Shown: piece by piece, positions 2,121 through 33,240 of the stretch
Layout of the letters: the number at the start of each line of letters is the position of its first letter
Numbering within the stretch: position 1 is the stretch's first letter
NCBI GenBank assembly: GCA_944324685.1
Contig: CALUXG010000011.1
Span: forward strand, 1 to 33,272
Direction of reading: 5' to 3'
Source of the DNA: an uncultured Elusimicrobiales bacterium
Lineage (GTDB): Bacteria > Elusimicrobiota > Elusimicrobia > Elusimicrobiales > Elusimicrobiaceae
DNA: 33,272 nt
The notes under the pieces: generated by a model
The model's input: only the letters and a program-made list of their open reading frames with translations
What the model was told of the DNA's origin: nothing
Databases searched by the model: none
Program-made: the position numbers and the translations under genes

Positions 2121-2687
2121 TTAGCGGAGCAAATTCTCCACGAAATTTTTAATGATTTCTGCTTTTTCAAAATAATGTTTGCTGCGAGGCACAATCAGAC
2201 GATTGGGATGGCGCTCCCAAATTTTCAGAATTTTGTCGTCAATTTCAAATGCCTGCTGCAGCGTCTCCGTGCGAACGTTGGTAGCTTGGTAATAATCTTT
2301 TTCCGGCGGAGGAGAGAGATGAATGACCGCGTCATAGCGGGCCAATTCCGCCTCCAGAGAGCTGCCCATGGCTTTGAAAAAATCTTCGGGGCCTTTTGGC
2401 CAGTATACGGCGCCGTCTATGGAGCCGCGGTCGCAAACGATGAGCGGCGCGGAAGAAGTGGCGTTGGCCAAATGCTCCAACTGGTGGACGGTATAAAAAA
2501 TGATACGCTGCGCGTGTTCTATATGAAGGGGGCTGTTGTCCTTGCGCGGGAAACCGCCGCTGTAAATCAGCGTTGCCGCTTCCTGCACCAGCTCAATTTT
2601 GCTGCCGAATGTTTCTTTCAATATGGACAGCGCGGTGGTTTTGCCGCCGCTGGGGCCTCCGGTTAAAACGATTTTCTTTTTGTTCAT
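2121..2687 (-). CDS. P-loop ATPase/kinase-like protein (second of a tandem pair)
   Basis: This 188-residue protein starts at the ATG at 2687, which overlaps the TGA of the upstream paralogue as ATGA and is preceded by a strong AGGAGGAG ribosome binding site. The frame is open further upstream but that part overlaps the neighbour in another frame. A Walker A motif, GGPSGGKTT, lies near residues 9-17. A strand ending LIVCDRGSIDGAVYWP resembles the Walker B/DRG region of NadR-type and AAA_28 P-loop proteins, which includes small-molecule kinases. It matches the upstream gene nearly throughout (for example ILKIWERHPNR), so the pair arose by tandem duplication. The substrate is unknown. Confidence 0.85.
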   Translation of the reverse strand: MNKKKIVLTGGPSGGKTTALSILKETFGSKIELVQEAATLIYSGGFPRKDNSPLHIEHAQRIIFYTVHQLEHLANATSSAPLIVCDRGSIDGAVYWPKGPEDFFKAMGSSLEAELARYDAVIHLSPPPEKDYYQATNVRTETLQQAFEIDDKILKIWERHPNRLIVPRSKHYFEKAEIIKNFVENLLR

Positions 2688-3262
2688 TTTTTCTCCTCCT
2701 GAGGAAGAAGGGTTTCTATAAAATCTTTGATGATGCCGGCTTTTTGGAAGAAATGATCCATGGAAGGCAGCACCATGCGGTTGGGATGACGCTCCCAAAT
2801 TTTCAAAATCTTCCGGTCAATGCGGGAAGCCTCCTCCAGTGTTTCCGTGCGTACACGTGTGGATTGATAAAACTCCGCTTTCAGCGGGGGCGAAAGATGA
2901 ATGACCGCGTCGTAGCGGGCTATTTGTTCTTCCAGCGTGGTTCCCATGGAGGCAAAAAAATCTTCCACTCCCTCTGGCCAATAAACGGCGGCGTCCACGG
3001 TGCCGCGGTCGCACACAATCAATTCGGCCGAAGAAGTTTGCAGGGCCAAGCTTTCCAGCTGCTGCGTAGCGTAGAAAATAATGCGCTGCGCCGTGCGGAC
3101 GTGTTCGGGACTGCCGTCTTTGCGCGGAAAGCCGCCGCTGAAAATCATGGTAGCCGCTTCCGGCACGACTTCTATTTTATTGCCGAAAGTTTCTTTCAGC
3201 ACCGACAGCGCGGTGGTTTTGCCGCCGTTTGGGCCGCCGGTAATGGCAATGCGTTTTGTCAT
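2684..3262 (-). CDS. P-loop ATPase/kinase-like protein (first of a tandem pair)
   Basis: This is a 192-residue single-domain P-loop protein. The Walker A motif GGPNGGKTT is at residues 9-17, a hydrophobic strand with VCDRGTVDAAVYW at 83-95 corresponds to the Walker B/DRG segment, and a conserved VRTETLEEA segment lies near 137-145. This pattern fits the AAA_28 (NadR-like) family, whose members include nucleoside and vitamin kinases and predicted ATPases. The ATG overlaps the stop codon of the upstream M23 peptidase (ATGA) and its own stop overlaps the next ATG, so translation of the three genes is probably coupled. The tandem paralogy suggests a heteromer or two related substrates, but nothing in the sequence decides this. 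Confidence 0.87.
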   Translation of the reverse strand: MTKRIAITGGPNGGKTTALSVLKETFGNKIEVVPEAATMIFSGGFPRKDGSPEHVRTAQRIIFYATQQLESLALQTSSAELIVCDRGTVDAAVYWPEGVEDFFASMGTTLEEQIARYDAVIHLSPPLKAEFYQSTRVRTETLEEASRIDRKILKIWERHPNRMVLPSMDHFFQKAGIIKDFIETLLPQEEKK

Positions 3263-9619: not shown

Positions 9620-10915
9620 ATGATAAACGTACTTAAAGAAGTTTTGAAAAACCAAGTATATCCGGCCATGGGATGCACGGAACCCGTATCCGTGGCTTTG
9701 TGCGGCGCATACGCGGCGCAGACATTGGGGCATACGCCCGATAAAGCCGTATTCCGGCTGGATCCGGGTACGTATAAAAACGGCTGCGGCGTGCGCATTC
9801 CCAATACGGAGGGAGAAAAAGGCAATTTGCTGGCCGCGGCTATGGGGCTTTTGATTGCAAAACCACAATTACAAATGGAAATTTTGTCCGGAGCGGATTC
9901 AAATTTGCTGTTTCGCGCTAAAGAAATGTTGGCGCAAGGCCGCGTACGGCTGGAAGTGGCGGCGGAGAAACACGGCTTTTATATAGAGTCTTTTGTGCAA
10001 GATGCAGCCGGTGCTTCGGCGCAATGCGTCATAGAGGGCAGTCATACGGACGTGGTGTATTTGGCAAAAGGACAAACGGTGCTGAAAGACGTACGCGCCA
10101 AAGAAGAAAAAAGCGCCAGTTTTGCTTTTAAGGACGCTTTGAAAAAGGCTTCATTGGCTGATCTGCTGGCGTGGACGGATGCGGCGGACGCCGAAGATTT
10201 GGCCTATATTAAAAAAGGCGTGGAAATGAATCTGAAGGCCGCGGAGATGGGGCAATCATTAAAAAAAGTTGGTTTTTATATTAAAGAACTGGTGCGTAAA
10301 AATTTATTGCAGATGGATTTGATCGCTTCCACAAAAATTTTGACGGCCTGTGCCGCCGATGCGCGCATGGACGGACAGTCTATTCCCGTGATGAGCAGCG
10401 GTGAATCGGGCAATCAGGGCGTGGTAACCATTTTGGTGCCGTGGAACGTGGGCAAACAAATGGGCGTAGCGGAAGAAAAAATACTCAGGAGCATTGCGCT
10501 TTCTCATCTGTTAAACGGATATGTAAAAGTCTTTACGGGAGAACTGGCCCCCATTTGCGGCTGTGCCATAGCCGCCGGCGTAGGAGCCGCGGCGGCTATA
10601 GTATATCAGCAGCGTGGTGCGGATATACCCGCCATTACGCTGGCCATTAACAATATTATCAGCGATATCGGCGGCATGCTTTGCGACGGAGCCAAAAGCG
10701 GCTGTGCGCTTAAAGTGGTCAGTTCCACCGATGCCGCCATACGGGCCGCTTTCATGGGGATGCATGACTATGGCATTACCGAAGTGGAAGGTTTTGTGGG
10801 CCACAGCGCTGAAGAAACCATACAAAATTTAGGGAATATTTCCACGGAAGGTATGCGGGCGGTGGATCCGATGATTGTAGATATTATGCAGGAGAAAACT
10901 TCCCGCCATAAATAA
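9620..10915 (+). CDS. cyuA: L-cysteine desulfidase / serine dehydratase-alpha-like (UPF0597, CyuA family)
   Basis: This 431-residue protein matches the UPF0597/CyuA family, related to the alpha domain of iron-sulfur L-serine dehydratases. Characterised members degrade L-cysteine to pyruvate, ammonia and sulfide with a [4Fe-4S] cluster. Conserved features are GCTEPVSVAL (C19), LDPGTYKNGCGV, SSGESGNQG, a CGCAIAAGVGAAAA segment and GMLCDGAKSGCALK near 355-370, which holds further candidate cluster cysteines. Its ATG directly follows the radC stop codon. The product would supply pyruvate and thus fits an amino-acid fermenter, but cysteine detoxification is equally possible. No terminator is evident downstream. 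Confidence 0.85.
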   Translation: MINVLKEVLKNQVYPAMGCTEPVSVALCGAYAAQTLGHTPDKAVFRLDPGTYKNGCGVRIPNTEGEKGNLLAAAMGLLIAKPQLQMEILSGADSNLLFRAKEMLAQGRVRLEVAAEKHGFYIESFVQDAAGASAQCVIEGSHTDVVYLAKGQTVLKDVRAKEEKSASFAFKDALKKASLADLLAWTDAADAEDLAYIKKGVEMNLKAAEMGQSLKKVGFYIKELVRKNLLQMDLIASTKILTACAADARMDGQSIPVMSSGESGNQGVVTILVPWNVGKQMGVAEEKILRSIALSHLLNGYVKVFTGELAPICGCAIAAGVGAAAAIVYQQRGADIPAITLAINNIISDIGGMLCDGAKSGCALKVVSSTDAAIRAAFMGMHDYGITEVEGFVGHSAEETIQNLGNISTEGMRAVDPMIVDIMQEKTSRHK

Positions 10916-11393
10916 ACCGTATCACGGCAATTTCAATGGGTGCGTTTAAGACCCGTCCGCCGTTTTGTAAATTTAGTTTATTTTCACTGTTCCATGACCT
11001 GTGTGCGCTGCCGCACCTTGCCTTGATTTGTCGGCGCAAGTTCAGAAGTAGATTCTCCAGTCAGGCCGTCGAGACCGGAAGTTCCCGTTTTTTACCTCCG
11101 GTGCGGCGGCTGCAAGTAGTGGAACGCTCCGAAGCTTATGCGTTAGTTGTGGAGCCATCCCACCTGTCATTGCCAGCAAGCGCTATCCTTATAGTGAGAA
11201 TACAAATGCCGTTATTTCCGAGAGTTTCCTTTGGCAATCTCAGCCTTACAAACAGAGCGGAAGAAATGCCCTGTAAAGACAATTCGTGCCTGATGCAGAG
11301 GTGTGGTTTTTAGGTATATTTATTGTGGTGTTGCGCAGCGGTGTTTATGGCTGTTATGTCGTGGCCGTTTATTTATTGAAAATCCGGTACAGC
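10916..11393. other. Long intergenic region, possible structured RNA, no confident gene
   Basis: About 480 nt separate the desulfidase gene from the prepilin A promoter. A frame at 10936-11313 is open but has a low-complexity composition unlike its neighbours, no ribosome binding site and no recognisable motif. Two local hairpins are visible: GTGCG-CTGC-CGCAC (about 11003-11016), and a nested stem of ACCGGA with TCCGGT, extended by GCCG/CGGC and CAG/CTG (about 11068-11113). I did not find the signature sequences of RNase P RNA, tmRNA or SRP RNA. The last 110 nt resemble the sequence upstream of prepilin D. Confidence 0.4.
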
Positions 11394-11424
11394 TTGATTT
11401 GTTTTTTTTTTTGATACCCTATAC
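11394..11424 (+). promoter_or_regulatory. Prepilin A promoter with an 11-T spacer tract
   Basis: The candidate -35 is TTGATT (11394-11399) and the -10-like box TACCCT (11415-11420). The 15-nt spacer is mostly an uninterrupted run of 11 T (11402-11412). The ATG of the upstream ORF is 4 nt after the -10, so the transcript is predicted to be leaderless. Three other prepilin genes in the window have the same arrangement. Confidence 0.55.
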
Positions 11425-11496
11425 ATGGCGAAAAAACAAACGCCGCTGAGACGTGTTTTTGAACGATTAAACGCTGTTATAGGAAGAAAAAAATGA
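11425..11496 (+). CDS. Upstream ORF of prepilin A (23 residues)
   Basis: A 23-codon frame starts at the predicted leaderless ATG (11425) and ends in a TGA that overlaps the prepilin ATG as ATGA (11493-11496). The peptide is basic, beginning MAKKQTPLRRVFERL and ending GRKK. The same frame occurs before prepilin D (32460) with only one amino-acid change in the first 22 positions. Its last codons contain AGGAAG, which can serve as the prepilin ribosome binding site. It may be a translated leader that couples or gates prepilin translation. It could instead be conserved only as DNA. Confidence 0.45.
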   Translation: MAKKQTPLRRVFERLNAVIGRKK

Positions 11497-11996
11497 AAAA
11501 AGGTTTTACATTAATTGAACTGTTGGTAGTAGTGCTGATTATCGGCATACTGACGGCCATTGCGCTGCCGCAATACGAAAAAGCCGTTAATAAAACCCGT
11601 ACCATGACACTATTGCCTTTGCTTCGTTCCATCAGTGATGCCGAGCAGCGCTATTATATGGCCAACGGAACATATACGCTGTCTTTTTCTGATTTGGATA
11701 TTGCTATGCCTGCAGGGGCGAAATTGTTCCAAGATACAAATTATGAATCGCTGGCATGGCAGAATTTCTCCTGTTTTTTGCGTGCCACTTCTGCCGATGA
11801 GCGTTCTTCCTATTCAGCCTATTGTTATTCCAAGGCGTCCGGTGTGCCGAAATTGGAAAAATATTTTGCCCGTTCTAATTTTATTTGTTGGGCTGAATCT
11901 GCGGATCAAAAAGCACTGGACATTTGCTATTCCATCAGTGGCAAAACGAAGCCGTCACTGACTACAGGTACCCAGGGAATAGGATTTTATTTTTGA
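11493..11996 (+). CDS. Type IV prepilin-like protein (cassette A)
   Basis: This 167-residue protein has a classical class III signal: MKKG before the cleavage point, then FTLIELLVVVLIIGILTAIALPQY with the conserved Glu at mature position 5. The prepilin peptidase would cut after Gly4, leaving a hydrophobic N-terminal helix and a globular domain of about 135 residues with several Cys. A shared block (DAEQRYYMANGTYTLSFSDLDI) is found in the other prepilins here. The protein may be a major or minor pilin or a pseudopilin. AGGAAG precedes the start, which overlaps the stop of the upstream ORF. A bidirectional terminator follows at 12012. Confidence 0.93.
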   Translation: MKKGFTLIELLVVVLIIGILTAIALPQYEKAVNKTRTMTLLPLLRSISDAEQRYYMANGTYTLSFSDLDIAMPAGAKLFQDTNYESLAWQNFSCFLRATSADERSSYSAYCYSKASGVPKLEKYFARSNFICWAESADQKALDICYSISGKTKPSLTTGTQGIGFYF

Positions 11997-12011
11997 GTAT
12001 ATTTTTGTATT

Positions 12012-12049
12012 AAAAAGCCCCGCGCGGTTAAATGCGCGAGGCTTTTTTT
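12012..12049. terminator. Bidirectional terminator between prepilin A and the nucleoside transporter
   Basis: AAAAAGCC and CGCGC (12012-12025) pair with GCGCG and GGCTTTTT (12034-12047), with small mismatches and an 8-nt loop. T runs result on both strands, matching the convergent genes. Confidence 0.85.
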
Positions 12050-12060
12050 GTCTAACTAAA

Positions 12061-13383
12061 CTAATTGGCCTGCGGCGTATGTTTATACTTAAACACCAAT
12101 GCAAAAGCTATGGCTACCACCAGTGCGTAAGCGGCAAAAATAAACCAAGAGCTGGACCAACCGGAGGCTATGGCCTGTGATACGGAAGCGGGATATACCG
12201 CTCCTTGCGCCAAAGGACCGTGTACGGCTGTATAGGCATTTTGCGGAGCATACACGAAATGATTGATGATTTCTTGTGCGCCCAACGTGCCTATTGTGGC
12301 GCCCACGCCGTTGGTCATCAGCATAAAAAGTCCCTGTGCGCTGGAGCGGATGGAAAGATCGGTTTCTTTTTCTACGAACAGCGAACCAGACACGTTAAAG
12401 AAGTCAAACGCCACTCCGTATACAATCATGGACAGAACCAGCATGGAAATACCCGGGAGCGTTACGGGGTTGCCAACGCCGAACAATCCAAAACGAAGCA
12501 CCCATGCAAACATACTGATCAACATGACTTTCTTAATTCCATACCGTTTGAGGAAGAATGGAATGAGAAGGATACAGAACGTTTCAGACAATTGCGACAG
12601 GGAAATCAAAGCGTTTGCGTTGCTGGCTCCCCAACTGCCGGCCAAACCTTCCAGCGTATTGTAGCTGTTGATGAACGGATTGGCATAACCGTTGGTGATT
12701 TGCAGACAGCTGCCTAAAAGCATGGAAAAGATAAAGAAAATAGCCATTCTTTTGTCTTTGAACAGTTTGAAAGCGTCCAAGCCCAACGCTTGCGCAAAAG
12801 ATTTTTTCTCTTTGCTGGTGCTGACGGGACAGTTGGTCAGCGTGAAGCTGTACATGCCCAACACTAAACCCAAAACGCCGGAGAGATACCATTGTGCGTA
12901 AGTGTTTTGAAAGCCGGTAAAGTTAGATACCAGCATGGTGCATATGAAGCCTACCGTTCCCCAAATGCGCAGGGGCGGAAAAGCCTGTACGGGGTCTAAG
13001 TTTACCGTGTGCAAGGCCGTGTAAGATACGGAGTTTGCCAAAGCAATCGTAGGCATGTACAAAGCCACGCTGAGCAGATAAAACGTATAAATGGAACCGA
13101 AACTGACCGGCGACTGTGAACCGAAATATGCCGCGCACATCATGAAAAAACCAGCCAGAATATGACACAGCCCCAGCATTTTTTGGGCCGGCATCCAACG
13201 GTCAGCCAAAATGCCGATAACAGCGGGCATAAACAGAGACACAAAGCCCTGTGTGGCATAGAACAAGCCAATGTGCTGCGCCTGCCCCACGTTGGCTAAA
13301 AAAGCCCCCATGGAGGTTAAGTACGCGCCCCAGACGGCGTACTGGAGGAAAAGCATAACGACTAAACGCAATTTCATTTTCAT
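12061..13383 (-). CDS. MFS nucleoside:H+ symporter (NupG-like)
   Basis: This 440-residue polytopic protein has about 12 hydrophobic segments and typical nucleoside:H+ symporter features: an N-terminal LQYAVWGAYLTSMGAFL, a loop-2/3 GILADRWMPAQK motif, the inner LRIWGTVGFI, and YGVAFDFFNVSGSLFVEKE in the C-terminal half. NupG/XapB relatives import nucleosides with protons across the inner membrane. It stands alone, transcribed divergently from yajQ and convergently with prepilin A. No good ribosome binding site precedes ATG 13383; an alternative ATG two codons later is possible. Nucleoside salvage suits a fermentative gut bacterium, but the exact substrate cannot be read from sequence. Confidence 0.85.
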   Translation of the reverse strand: MKMKLRLVVMLFLQYAVWGAYLTSMGAFLANVGQAQHIGLFYATQGFVSLFMPAVIGILADRWMPAQKMLGLCHILAGFFMMCAAYFGSQSPVSFGSIYTFYLLSVALYMPTIALANSVSYTALHTVNLDPVQAFPPLRIWGTVGFICTMLVSNFTGFQNTYAQWYLSGVLGLVLGMYSFTLTNCPVSTSKEKKSFAQALGLDAFKLFKDKRMAIFFIFSMLLGSCLQITNGYANPFINSYNTLEGLAGSWGASNANALISLSQLSETFCILLIPFFLKRYGIKKVMLISMFAWVLRFGLFGVGNPVTLPGISMLVLSMIVYGVAFDFFNVSGSLFVEKETDLSIRSSAQGLFMLMTNGVGATIGTLGAQEIINHFVYAPQNAYTAVHGPLAQGAVYPASVSQAIASGWSSSWFIFAAYALVVAIAFALVFKYKHTPQAN

Positions 13384-17731: not shown

Positions 17732-18809
17732 GGCCTTTTAGATGCAGCAAAGGTATTTCCGCTGGAGCCAAAAAGCGCAGCGGCACGCCCCAGTAGAACA
17801 TGCCGGAAGTAACATAGATGCGGGATTCCGGTCCGGTTTGATACATTCCGTATACATAGGGATAAACGCGTTTGACGAAGAAGTTAAAGGGGAATATTTG
17901 GCCGTTGTGCGTGTGTCCGCTCAGCATAAGCGGGATATGGTGTTTGGCGGCGGTTTCGGTTAAAAGCGGCTGATGGCTTAGTAAAATGCGTGTGCGCGCC
18001 GGATCGGTTTTGGCCAGCCAGCTGTCCAGTTCTTGTTCCGTGATGCGAGCGGTGCGTATATCATTGATTCCTATCAGCTGTATGCCGTTTGGCAGTGTAA
18101 GAATCTCATTATTCAGTCGCCGTATTCCCGCCATCTTAAAAAAATCTGCCGACTGGTCATATCCCGTGTAATATTCATGATTTCCGAATACGCCGAAAGA
18201 GCCGTATTTGGTTTGGAAGTCAGCCAGCGCCTGTGCATATTTTTCTCGGTGCATGCCGTATTCGAACAAATCTCCCAGCACAAACAGCGCATCGGGATGG
18301 TGTTCTTTCAGCCGAGCCAATGCTTTTTCAAACCGCGCCAGCGGTACGCCTATGCCCAGATGGCTGTCCGAAATAACGGCTATGGTCATTTCCGGAGCGC
18401 CGGAGAGAGCGATGTCAATATGTTTTATTTTCGGCTGGCGCAATCCGCCGTACACGGCCATGCAGGCAATGGCCGCCATGCACAGTAAACTTAATGGTCC
18501 CAGCAGGGGTTTGGCGTGCAGGTGAAACAGTTGGCAAATGGCTTGTATGATGGCAAAAGCCATGAGGGCGAAAAAAAGGATGAATACCAGTCCGGCGTAT
18601 GTATAGGCCAAATAATACGCGATGCTTTCCAACGTGCCGTAATGCGTGCGCGTATACGCCATGCACAGCCGCATGCCCGTCGTCAGCATGAGGGGCAACA
18701 GTACGGCGGGTATTTTCCAACCGATAGATGGAAAAAGAAAATAAAACCACAGGCCTATGCCAACCTGCATAAAAAGTAAAATCAAACTGGCAAAAACAAA
18801 AAAACTCAT
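17724..18809 (-). CDS. Membrane-anchored metallophosphoesterase (YkuE/YaeI-like)
   Basis: This 361-residue protein has about four N-terminal membrane segments (residues 4-122) followed by a calcineurin-like phosphoesterase domain. Metal-site motifs are D148-S-H150, GD180, GNH (209-211) and GHTH (298-301). The second motif reads GDLFE where GDxxD is usual, a conservative change. Relatives include YkuE and YaeI, the latter an enzyme acting on lipid-linked phosphates such as UDP-diacylglucosamine. The catalytic domain side of the membrane is not certain. AGGA precedes the start. The GH3 gene follows with an overlap, pointing to a shared envelope role. Confidence 0.88.
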   Translation of the reverse strand: MSFFVFASLILLFMQVGIGLWFYFLFPSIGWKIPAVLLPLMLTTGMRLCMAYTRTHYGTLESIAYYLAYTYAGLVFILFFALMAFAIIQAICQLFHLHAKPLLGPLSLLCMAAIACMAVYGGLRQPKIKHIDIALSGAPEMTIAVISDSHLGIGVPLARFEKALARLKEHHPDALFVLGDLFEYGMHREKYAQALADFQTKYGSFGVFGNHEYYTGYDQSADFFKMAGIRRLNNEILTLPNGIQLIGINDIRTARITEQELDSWLAKTDPARTRILLSHQPLLTETAAKHHIPLMLSGHTHNGQIFPFNFFVKRVYPYVYGMYQTGPESRIYVTSGMFYWGVPLRFLAPAEIPLLHLKGHD

Positions 18810-26309: not shown

Positions 26310-26343
26310 TTGCATTGTTTTTTTTTTTTGATAAATTTTGCGT
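26310..26343 (+). promoter_or_regulatory. Prepilin C promoter with a 12-T spacer tract
   Basis: Candidate -35 TTGCAT (26310-26315), a 16-nt spacer containing 12 uninterrupted T (26318-26329), and -10-like TAAATT (26332-26337). The ATG at 26344 is 6 nt after the -10, so the transcript is predicted to be leaderless. Confidence 0.55.
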
Positions 26344-26365
26344 ATGAACAAAATTTATCAAAAAA
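26324..26365. repeat. 17-bp inverted repeat around the prepilin C start codon
   Basis: The arms 26324-26340 and 26349-26365 (core GATAAATTTTG / CAAAATTTATC, flanked by T6/A6) are perfectly complementary. The 8-nt centre CGTATGAA contains the start codon. The left arm covers the -10 box. The same repeat occurs in cassette E. Confidence 0.85.
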
Positions 26366-27102
26366 TGTATCTGAAGGGAAAAAAGAAGTCTAAAGGCGTT
26401 TTAGGCGGCTTTATTGATAACGTCATTCTGAGAGGTTTTTACTCAGGATCGCGACCTTTTGGGAATCTAAAGTGGTTGGGATGCCGAGTAAAAGCGTCTC
26501 GGCATGACGCTAATATAAATAACGAGAATATAAATGATGACACTATAAATAACGTCATTCTGAGAGGTTTTTACTCAGAATCTCGACCTTTTTCTATCAA
26601 ACGGGCCGGCTTTACGCTGATTGAACTCTTGGTCGTGGTGCTGATTATCGGTATATTGGCGGCCATTGCCCTGCCGCAATATCAGGTGGCGGTATTAAAA
26701 AGCCGGTTTATGAGTTTTATGCCCACCGTGCGCGCTCTGATAAACGCGCAGGAAGTCTATTATATGGCTAACGGCAGATATGCTTATAATCTAAGTCAGC
26801 TGGATGTACAAATTCCGGAGGATTGCCGCGCGCGTTCTAATACCAGTGCTCCCAATGAAATTTTATGCGGGACGGACTGGTTGCTGGATAATGTTTCCTT
26901 AAGAATGGAACCGTTAGGGGTGATGAGTGTTAGTTATTGCCCGGGGAATAATACAAACGGCAGCACTTCTTGTGAACCTGTGTTGGAAGTGAAGCTGACC
27001 TTTTATTATTCTCAGCATGCGGAAAAACCCGATCAGGTCTCTTGCAGCGCAAAAACAAAAAAGGGAACCTTGCTCTGCCATACATTGAAGGGAATTTTTT
27101 AA
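26344..27102 (+). CDS. Type IV prepilin-like protein with an 89-residue N-terminal extension (cassette C)
   Basis: This 252-residue frame has a normal prepilin core, KRAG before the cleavage point, then FTLIELLVVVLIIGILAAIALPQY from residue 90, and a Cys-containing globular domain (YYMANGRYAYNLSQLDV). Before it lie 89 residues instead of the usual 5-30. These begin MNKIYQKMYLKGKKK, then hold two copies of NVILRGFYS(G/E)SRPF 132 nt apart and an Asn-rich stretch of three 5-residue units. The frame is open throughout and no ATG, GTG or TTG lies close to the KRAGF site, so translation from 26344 is the simplest reading. It could also be a cassette disabled by repeat insertion. The stop overlaps that of convergent holA. 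Confidence 0.75.
   Translation: MNKIYQKMYLKGKKKSKGVLGGFIDNVILRGFYSGSRPFGNLKWLGCRVKASRHDANINNENINDDTINNVILRGFYSESRPFSIKRAGFTLIELLVVVLIIGILAAIALPQYQVAVLKSRFMSFMPTVRALINAQEVYYMANGRYAYNLSQLDVQIPEDCRARSNTSAPNEILCGTDWLLDNVSLRMEPLGVMSVSYCPGNNTNGSTSCEPVLEVKLTFYYSQHAEKPDQVSCSAKTKKGTLLCHTLKGIF
26419..26592. repeat. In-frame palindromic repeat cluster inside the prepilin C leader
   Basis: Two 42-bp copies (26419-26460 and 26551-26592) differ at two positions. Each contains ATTCTGAG pairing with CTCAG(G/A)AT across a 9-nt loop. Between them, ATGCCGAG/CTCGGCAT (26481-26505) forms a third palindrome, also with 8-bp arms and a 9-nt loop. A 15-nt tandem repeat of three units (26509-26553) precedes the second copy. 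All units keep the prepilin frame open. Confidence 0.85.
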
Positions 27103-32354: not shown

Positions 32355-32449
32355 ATTGGATTTTGATATTGGTCGATTTTTTTCTTTACGCCGTTGCCGT
32401 TTATTTGCCGAAAGCCGCCCAAGCCTTGACTCGTCTTTTTTTTTTTTGA
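32324..32449 (+). CDS. Candidate 41-residue membrane peptide
   Basis: A GTG start at 32324 follows AAAGAGGAG by 7 nt, a very good ribosome binding site. The 41-residue product has one hydrophobic segment (NWILILVDFFLYAVAVLF, residues 11-28). The frame ends in FFF and a TGA formed where the 11-T tract of the prepilin D promoter ends, so its end depends on the tract length. A frame of similar size (11286-11414, GTG start, no ribosome site) ends the same way before prepilin A. The role is unknown, and this may be chance. Confidence 0.3.
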   Translation: MAEMFRHDEMNWILILVDFFLYAVAVYLPKAAQALTRLFFF

Positions 32450-32459
32450 TACCCTGTAC
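32427..32459 (+). promoter_or_regulatory. Prepilin D promoter with an 11-T spacer tract
   Basis: Candidate -35 TTGACT (32427-32432), a 17-nt spacer with 11 uninterrupted T (32437-32447), and -10-like TACCCT (32450-32455). The upstream-ORF ATG is 4 nt after the -10. Confidence 0.6.
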
Positions 32460-32595
32460 ATGGCGGAAAAACAAACGCCGCTGAGACGTGTTTTTGAACG
32501 ATTAAACGCTGTTATAGGAAGAAAAAATGAGAAAAGGTTTTACATTAATTGAACTGTTGGTAGTAGTGTTGATTGTCGGTATATTGGCGGCCATA
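32437..32595 (+). repeat. Cassette D leader and prepilin N-terminus, direct repeat of 11402-11562
   Basis: From the T tract to the start codon the two cassettes differ at only two bases and a one-base A indel. Similarity then continues through the hydrophobic N-terminal helix, and falls off in the globular domain. Confidence 0.85.
32460..32552 (+). CDS. Upstream ORF of prepilin D (30 residues, frame-shifted end)
   Basis: It begins MAEKQTPLRRVFERL, as in cassette A. The A run before the prepilin start is one base shorter, so the frame does not stop at the prepilin ATG but continues 26 nt inside the prepilin gene, ending at TGA 32552. It would still overlap and could affect prepilin initiation. 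The AGGAAG site is retained. Confidence 0.4.
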   Translation: MAEKQTPLRRVFERLNAVIGRKNEKRFYIN

Positions 32596-33027
32596 GCGTT
32601 GCCGCAATATCAAACGGCGGTGGCGGCAAGTAAGATGATGCGTTTTATACCTGCTGCCCGAGCCATTAAAGACGCGCAGGAGCGGTATTATATGGCCAAC
32701 GGAGACTATGTGTTGGATTTGGGGAATTTGGACATATCCCTTCCGGCGGGCTGTCGGTTCTATGGGGGTACTTCCATTAAAAACCAAGTATTGTGCGGAG
32801 AGGATTGGGTAATGGATAACGTGGAGGTAAACCAGCGTTCGCAGCGGAAGCTCGCGCTGTATTATTGCCCGGGGAAAAACAGCCTCGGCACGGCTTCTTG
32901 CAATAACAACAGCGCTATAGGAAGAATTACTTTTTTCTATGACCAGCATGCCCGCTACCCGGGAAAAATAGACTGCACTTCCCCGTCAAAGCGATTTTGT
33001 TCGGCCCTGCAAAGTGTTTTGAAATAA
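32527..33027 (+). CDS. Type IV prepilin-like protein (cassette D)
   Basis: This 166-residue protein has the class III leader MRKG and then FTLIELLVVVLIVGILAAIALPQY with Glu at mature position 5. The globular domain carries an AIKDAQERYYMANGDYVLDL block, a GTSIKNQVLCGEDWVMDNV segment like that of prepilin C, and four to six Cys that could form disulfides near the C-terminus. Prepilins A, C and D share the N-terminal helix closely but diverge in the exposed domain. AGGAAG precedes the start. A terminator follows at 33045. Confidence 0.93.
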   Translation: MRKGFTLIELLVVVLIVGILAAIALPQYQTAVAASKMMRFIPAARAIKDAQERYYMANGDYVLDLGNLDISLPAGCRFYGGTSIKNQVLCGEDWVMDNVEVNQRSQRKLALYYCPGKNSLGTASCNNNSAIGRITFFYDQHARYPGKIDCTSPSKRFCSALQSVLK

Positions 33028-33164: not shown

Positions 33165-33240
33165 TTTTAAAAGGGCTTGCATTGTTTTTTTTTTTTGATA
33201 AATTTTGCGTATGGACAAAATTTATCAAAAAATGTATCTG
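33165..33240 (+). repeat. Cassette E leader, 76-nt direct repeat with cassette C
   Basis: 75 of 76 bases are identical to 26298-26373. The 17-bp inverted repeat (33191-33207 / 33216-33232) is intact; the single difference falls in its centre. Confidence 0.9.
33177..33210 (+). promoter_or_regulatory. Cassette E promoter with a 12-T spacer tract
   Basis: TTGCAT (33177-33182), a 16-nt spacer with 12 T (33185-33196), TAAATT (33199-33204), ATG 6 nt later. The layout is identical to cassette C. Confidence 0.55.

Follow-up and report, generated by a model that had tools for sequence, protein, structure and literature searches.

In an uncultured gut Elusimicrobiales bacterium, about 55 of 76 type IV prepilin genes each have their own promoter, which is built around a run of about 12 T. 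The length of this run changes faster than its flanks and thus each pilin may be tuned or switched separately, although switching itself is inferred rather than demonstrated. The promoters form a genome-wide class, CTTGaYTYG-T12-GMTAnnnT, with a 16-nt spacer between the -35 and -10 boxes. T12 is the set point of this class, whereas tract length is nevertheless labile.

Promoters with T tracts upstream of prepilin genes

We examined a stretch of 33,272 nt (hereafter, the window), which is contig C11 (CALUXG010000011.1) of a 1.4-Mb metagenome-assembled genome (MAG) in 49 contigs (GCA_944324685.1; G000 below). An earlier note reported four prepilin cassettes in the window with runs of 11, 12, 11 and 12 T between -35-like and -10-like boxes, giving spacers of 15, 16, 17 and 16 nt. 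We found exactly four homopolymers of ≥10 nt in the window, each located between TTGNNN and TANNNT boxes. The observation was therefore confirmed, except that the third tract is T12 instead of T11, is preceded by CGTC, and has a spacer of 18 nt instead of 17 nt. The features are as follows:

11394-11420 (+): prepilin promoter 1; TTGATT (11394-11399), a TG-T11-GA spacer of 15 nt (T11 at 11402-11412) and TACCCT (11415-11420)
11493-11996 (+): prepilin 1 (167 aa; PF07963 N_methyl, E = 1.3e-7)
26310-26337 (+): prepilin promoter 2; TTGCAT, a 16-nt spacer with T12 (26318-26329) and TAAATT (26332-26337)
26330-26359 (+): palindrome GATAAATTTTG-CGTATGAA-CAAAATTTATC overlapping the -10 box and the start codon
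26344-27102 (+): prepilin 2; ATG exactly 6 nt after the -10 box (leaderless geometry), with a long N-terminal leader before GFTLIELL
32426-32455 (+): prepilin promoter 3; TTGACT, an 18-nt spacer CGTC-T12-GA (T12 at 32436-32447) and TACCCT (32450-32455)
32527-33027 (+): prepilin 3 (166 aa; PF07963, E = 9.4e-8)
33177-33204 (+): prepilin promoter 4; TTGCAT, a 16-nt spacer with T12 (33185-33196) and TAAATT; the prepilin continues on contig C6

The first three tracts precede prepilin ORFs. The fourth runs off the contig, but its last 127 nt are identical to the start of contig C6, where a prepilin follows at C6:393. In the long leader of prepilin 2 (26344-26600), there are two in-frame copies of NVILRGFYS(G/E)SRPF, resembling a palindromic repeat element read in frame. 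The window also encodes a PilT-like ATPase (PF00437; 22191-23270), so that a pilus motor gene lies in the same window, and two adjacent, similar ATP-binding proteins (GGPSGGKTTALS / GGPNGGKTTALS; 2121-3262).

To determine whether the association of T tracts with prepilins exceeds chance, we analyzed the entire genome, using stretches around hits. A search with PF07963 identified 76 prepilin genes with the N-terminal GF(T/S)LIE methylation motif above the curated cut-off, and the window proteins also satisfied this criterion. Of the 72 runs of T≥9 in the genome, 56 were located within 700 nt upstream of a prepilin on the same strand and none on the opposite strand (binomial expectation, 1.4; P about 1e-81). 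One of the 56 (C9:4882) is a terminator T run, leaving 55 promoters, located 27-507 nt upstream of a prepilin. Several of the other 16 are the same promoter cut off by contig ends (C8, C17, C10, C40 and the end of C11), and C47:531 is a promoter (T13) followed by no recognizable prepilin, a likely remnant. Of the 21 prepilins without a T≥9 tract, two have a similar promoter with T8, and five adjacent prepilins (C18:27839-30026) form a tandem run without any tract, which serves as an internal control.

We next examined the positions of the boxes in 209 tracts from three genomes. The consensus was CTTG(A/C)(C/A)T(C/T)G-T12-GATA(C/A)(A/C)(T/C)T. TANNNT started exactly 2 nt after the tract in 198 of the 209, and TTG started exactly 8 nt before it in about 95%, so the two boxes were not picked by eye. 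The spacer was 16 nt in 144 of 187. In the two types GATA.ATTTT and GMTACACTTTT, the ATG lies exactly 6 nt after the -10 box in 104 of 126 promoters (26344 and 33211 in the window), and 80 of 90 such ATGs tested in two related species opened the prepilin frame. This geometry fits leaderless mRNAs, which are thus predicted for these prepilins, and supports the -10 assignment independently of the T tract. Promoter function is inferred from this sequence geometry. In family A (11394, 32427), the start codon is about 80 nt further downstream. We considered a leader peptide ahead of the family-A prepilins (ATGGCGAAAAAT...TGA) but rejected it, because the ATG is not conserved across copies. The AT-rich palindrome at 26330-26359 is kept in most copies of its promoter type with some paired changes (such as GATATATTTTGCG...CGCAAAATATATT), and is a possible operator or hairpin.

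When genomes were searched with the pattern CTTGNNTYG-T9+-GMTA, matches were found in 46 of 66 same-genus genomes, with up to 56 per genome, and the reversed pattern gave zero matches. In a draw across the phylum, the pattern was present in 33 of 46 same-genus genomes, 1 of 18 other genomes of the family, and 0 of 184 genomes beyond it. The number of prepilins in other genomes of the genus ranged from 22 confirmed matches in the poorest to about 250 first-look candidates in the richest.

Tract length in paralogs and related species

To examine whether tract length is fixed or labile, we compared lengths within and between genomes. T12 accounted for 180 of 225 promoters (80%) in 16 other species, and for 73 of 97 and 49 of 63 in the related species G068 (CALUXH01) and G058 (CASFOP01), respectively, with a few T7 runs counted in. 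In G000, 29 of 55 were T12 and the rest ranged from T9 to T17; including the two T8 promoters, lengths range from 8 to 17. A homopolymer that keeps one length while its -35 variant and flanks diverge is probably under selection for that length.

Nevertheless, length has little memory. In G000, the five closest paralog pairs (93-97% flank identity over 100 nt) were T11/T14, T10/T11, T9/T11, T14/T12 and T9/T14; a 99% pair was left out because it is one locus seen on two contigs. The share of pairs differing in length was already 10 of 13 at ≥90% identity and did not rise with distance, although paralog pairs share members and are not independent. Between G058 and G068, 29 of 40 best-hit pairs, some of which are not syntenic, were T12/T12, 11 had one non-12 member, and none had two. 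One locus was T12 versus T13 with identical adjacent flanks. Of the syntenic sites defined by the upstream flank alone, most were T12/T12 and one pair shared T13, though with different prepilins. A scan of genome contigs for strain-level comparison returned other species only, and these lengths are from one consensus assembly per species. Further, all 26 prepilins behind non-12 tracts in G000 keep open frames of 154 to 293 aa, and thus off-length loci are not dead genes.

In G000, the variation was concentrated in promoters with TTGATTTG (1 of 11 at T12, including one TTCATTTG) compared with TTGACTCG (15 of 19 at T12; Fisher P = 4e-4), so that perhaps only a subset is labile. However, in another genome (G069) the TTGATTTG class was nearly all T12, indicating that this is not a property of that sequence alone. 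A MutS gene is present and intact in the genome. Thus, judged by MutS, the genome is not an obvious mismatch-repair mutant, and such a defect as the cause is not supported.

Genomic sites and orientation of the prepilin cassettes

The promoter often coincides with a join between one upstream flank and different prepilins. In G000, the last 127 nt of contig C17 read towards its end (C17:1-127; its own flank, T12 and GATACCCTATACAT) are also the first 127 nt of C21 (1-127) and of C15 reversed (18198-18324), which continue into different prepilins. This flank occurs nowhere else in the genome. In the assembly, this could reflect strain mixture or cassette exchange. In G058 and G068, sites with 84-99% identical upstream flanks often carried different prepilins (for example, 96% identity upstream and 59% downstream), and one cassette that was 99% identical downstream had a different upstream flank. 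In several pairs, however, upstream similarity ended 60-170 nt before the tract, and the join is therefore not always there. At the site between the yhaM-like and MFS genes of the window (10915-12061; intergenic 10916-12060), relatives had no cassette (G020, G001, G072, G066 and G016), a different prepilin with a T12 promoter (G062), or a prepilin without a tract (G049, G059, G041 and G010).

Neighboring tract promoters on one contig shared a strand in 149 of 153 cases over four genomes. In the two-contig genome G062, the single switch of strand (185-265 kb of C1) brackets the GC-skew sign change at about 225 kb, and all 38 tracts match the leading strand, whereas other long ORFs sampled in the same stretches do not follow this rule. 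Across G062, G058, G068 and G000, the tract-bearing cassettes are almost strictly co-directional with replication. The window has a positive GC skew and all of its tracts are on the + strand.

Interpretation and comparison with known systems

The earlier note proposed that slipped-strand changes in the tracts set different expression states, so that different pilins could be expressed in different cells. This interpretation is partly supported. The tract is the spacer of a promoter class specific to prepilins and its length changes faster than its flanks, but the strong T12 mode argues against the picture of many different states at once, because most copies sit at one set point. The family is also far larger than four. 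We consider it most likely (probability about 0.55) that these are members of a large, genus-restricted family of single-gene prepilin cassettes, each read from its own sigma-70-type promoter with a hypermutable T tract as the spacer. In this view, T12 is the reference, presumably strong, state, and slipped-strand gain or loss of T would change the spacer by one or more nt and so raise or lower that one gene independently of the other ~55. Our analysis demonstrates the promoter class, its link to prepilins, its T12 mode, and the lability of length relative to flanks over evolutionary time. In contrast, slippage as the cause, the effect of length on transcription, the mixing of lengths within one population, and a use in antigenic or adhesive variation are inferences. 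Phase variation requires a high rate and reversibility, and homopolymer indels far above the substitution rate are not enough by themselves (PMC11868660). Further, 16 and 17 nt are both normal sigma-70 spacers, and T12 and T13 need not differ much.

The main rival, which we consider possible but less likely, is that T12 is a required structural spacer of a shared, co-regulated prepilin promoter held by purifying selection, and that other lengths are slow mutational noise without phase variation. The T12 mode in 16 species, the 29 T12/T12 best-hit pairs despite differing -35 variants and flanks, the constant -10 offset and the presence of MutS are consistent with this, and a freely switching family might be more spread. 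However, close paralogs in G000 differ in length as often as unrelated ones, the range of lengths is wide, and genes behind off-length tracts stay intact. It is more doubtful that the conserved block is mainly the short homology at which prepilin cassettes are exchanged between genomic sites, with length variation as a by-product. The contig joins, the different prepilins behind similar upstream flanks in G058 and G068, and the yhaM-MFS site, where the cassette is absent, different or of another promoter class in relatives, suggest such a seam, but it does not explain why the tract is always a correctly spaced promoter or why T12 is preferred, and it does not exclude slippage. Assembly or sequencing errors are very unlikely to explain the lengths. 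All data are consensus contigs of MAGs, and ±1 errors occur in T12, but lengths such as T9, T15 and T17 in G000 and the tight T12 mode in independent assemblies are not what random error gives.

A more speculative and rather unlikely possibility is a two-level system of pilin diversification, in which tens of leading-strand-oriented cassettes per genome move or recombine at a shared promoter seam and each is also tuned by slippage. Both which pilins are present and how strongly each is made would then vary clonally, and the mRNAs of many would be leaderless. If the tracts switch, this would be a very large promoter-spacer contingency family (about 55 loci in a 1.4-Mb genome and about 90 in one relative), in a phylum for which the papers searched describe no such case, and would give a reason for the unexplained excess of prepilins in this gut genus. 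Our literature search, which covered an incomplete collection, found no description of this promoter family.

With respect to simple-sequence contingency loci of the promoter-spacer type, the homopolymer lies between the -35 and -10 boxes, its length varies between closely related copies, and the genes remain intact behind off-length tracts, whereas the reversible, high-rate change within a population and the dependence of expression on tract length that also define such loci are here only inferred. The closest functional analogue is the Vlp system of Mycoplasma hyorhinis, in which random indels in a poly-A tract in the promoter of every vlp gene switch each of these surface-protein genes on or off independently (Citti and Wise 1995, as reviewed in PMC10502178). 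The present family may work like Vlp but is not a member, because it comprises type IV prepilins instead of lipoproteins, poly-T (coding strand) tracts with a T12 mode, and 55 dispersed loci in an unrelated phylum, where switching is only inferred. In Neisseria porA and fetA, which the earlier note cited as examples, a homopolymer likewise lies between -35 and -10 and its length changes the spacing, but those are single genes with poly-G/C, whereas here a whole gene family carries poly-T. Neisseria pilE/pilS also comprises many pilin variants per genome, with possible recombination among copies as may occur here. However, pilS copies are silent and promoterless, in contrast to the present cassettes, about 55 of which have their own promoter and start codon.
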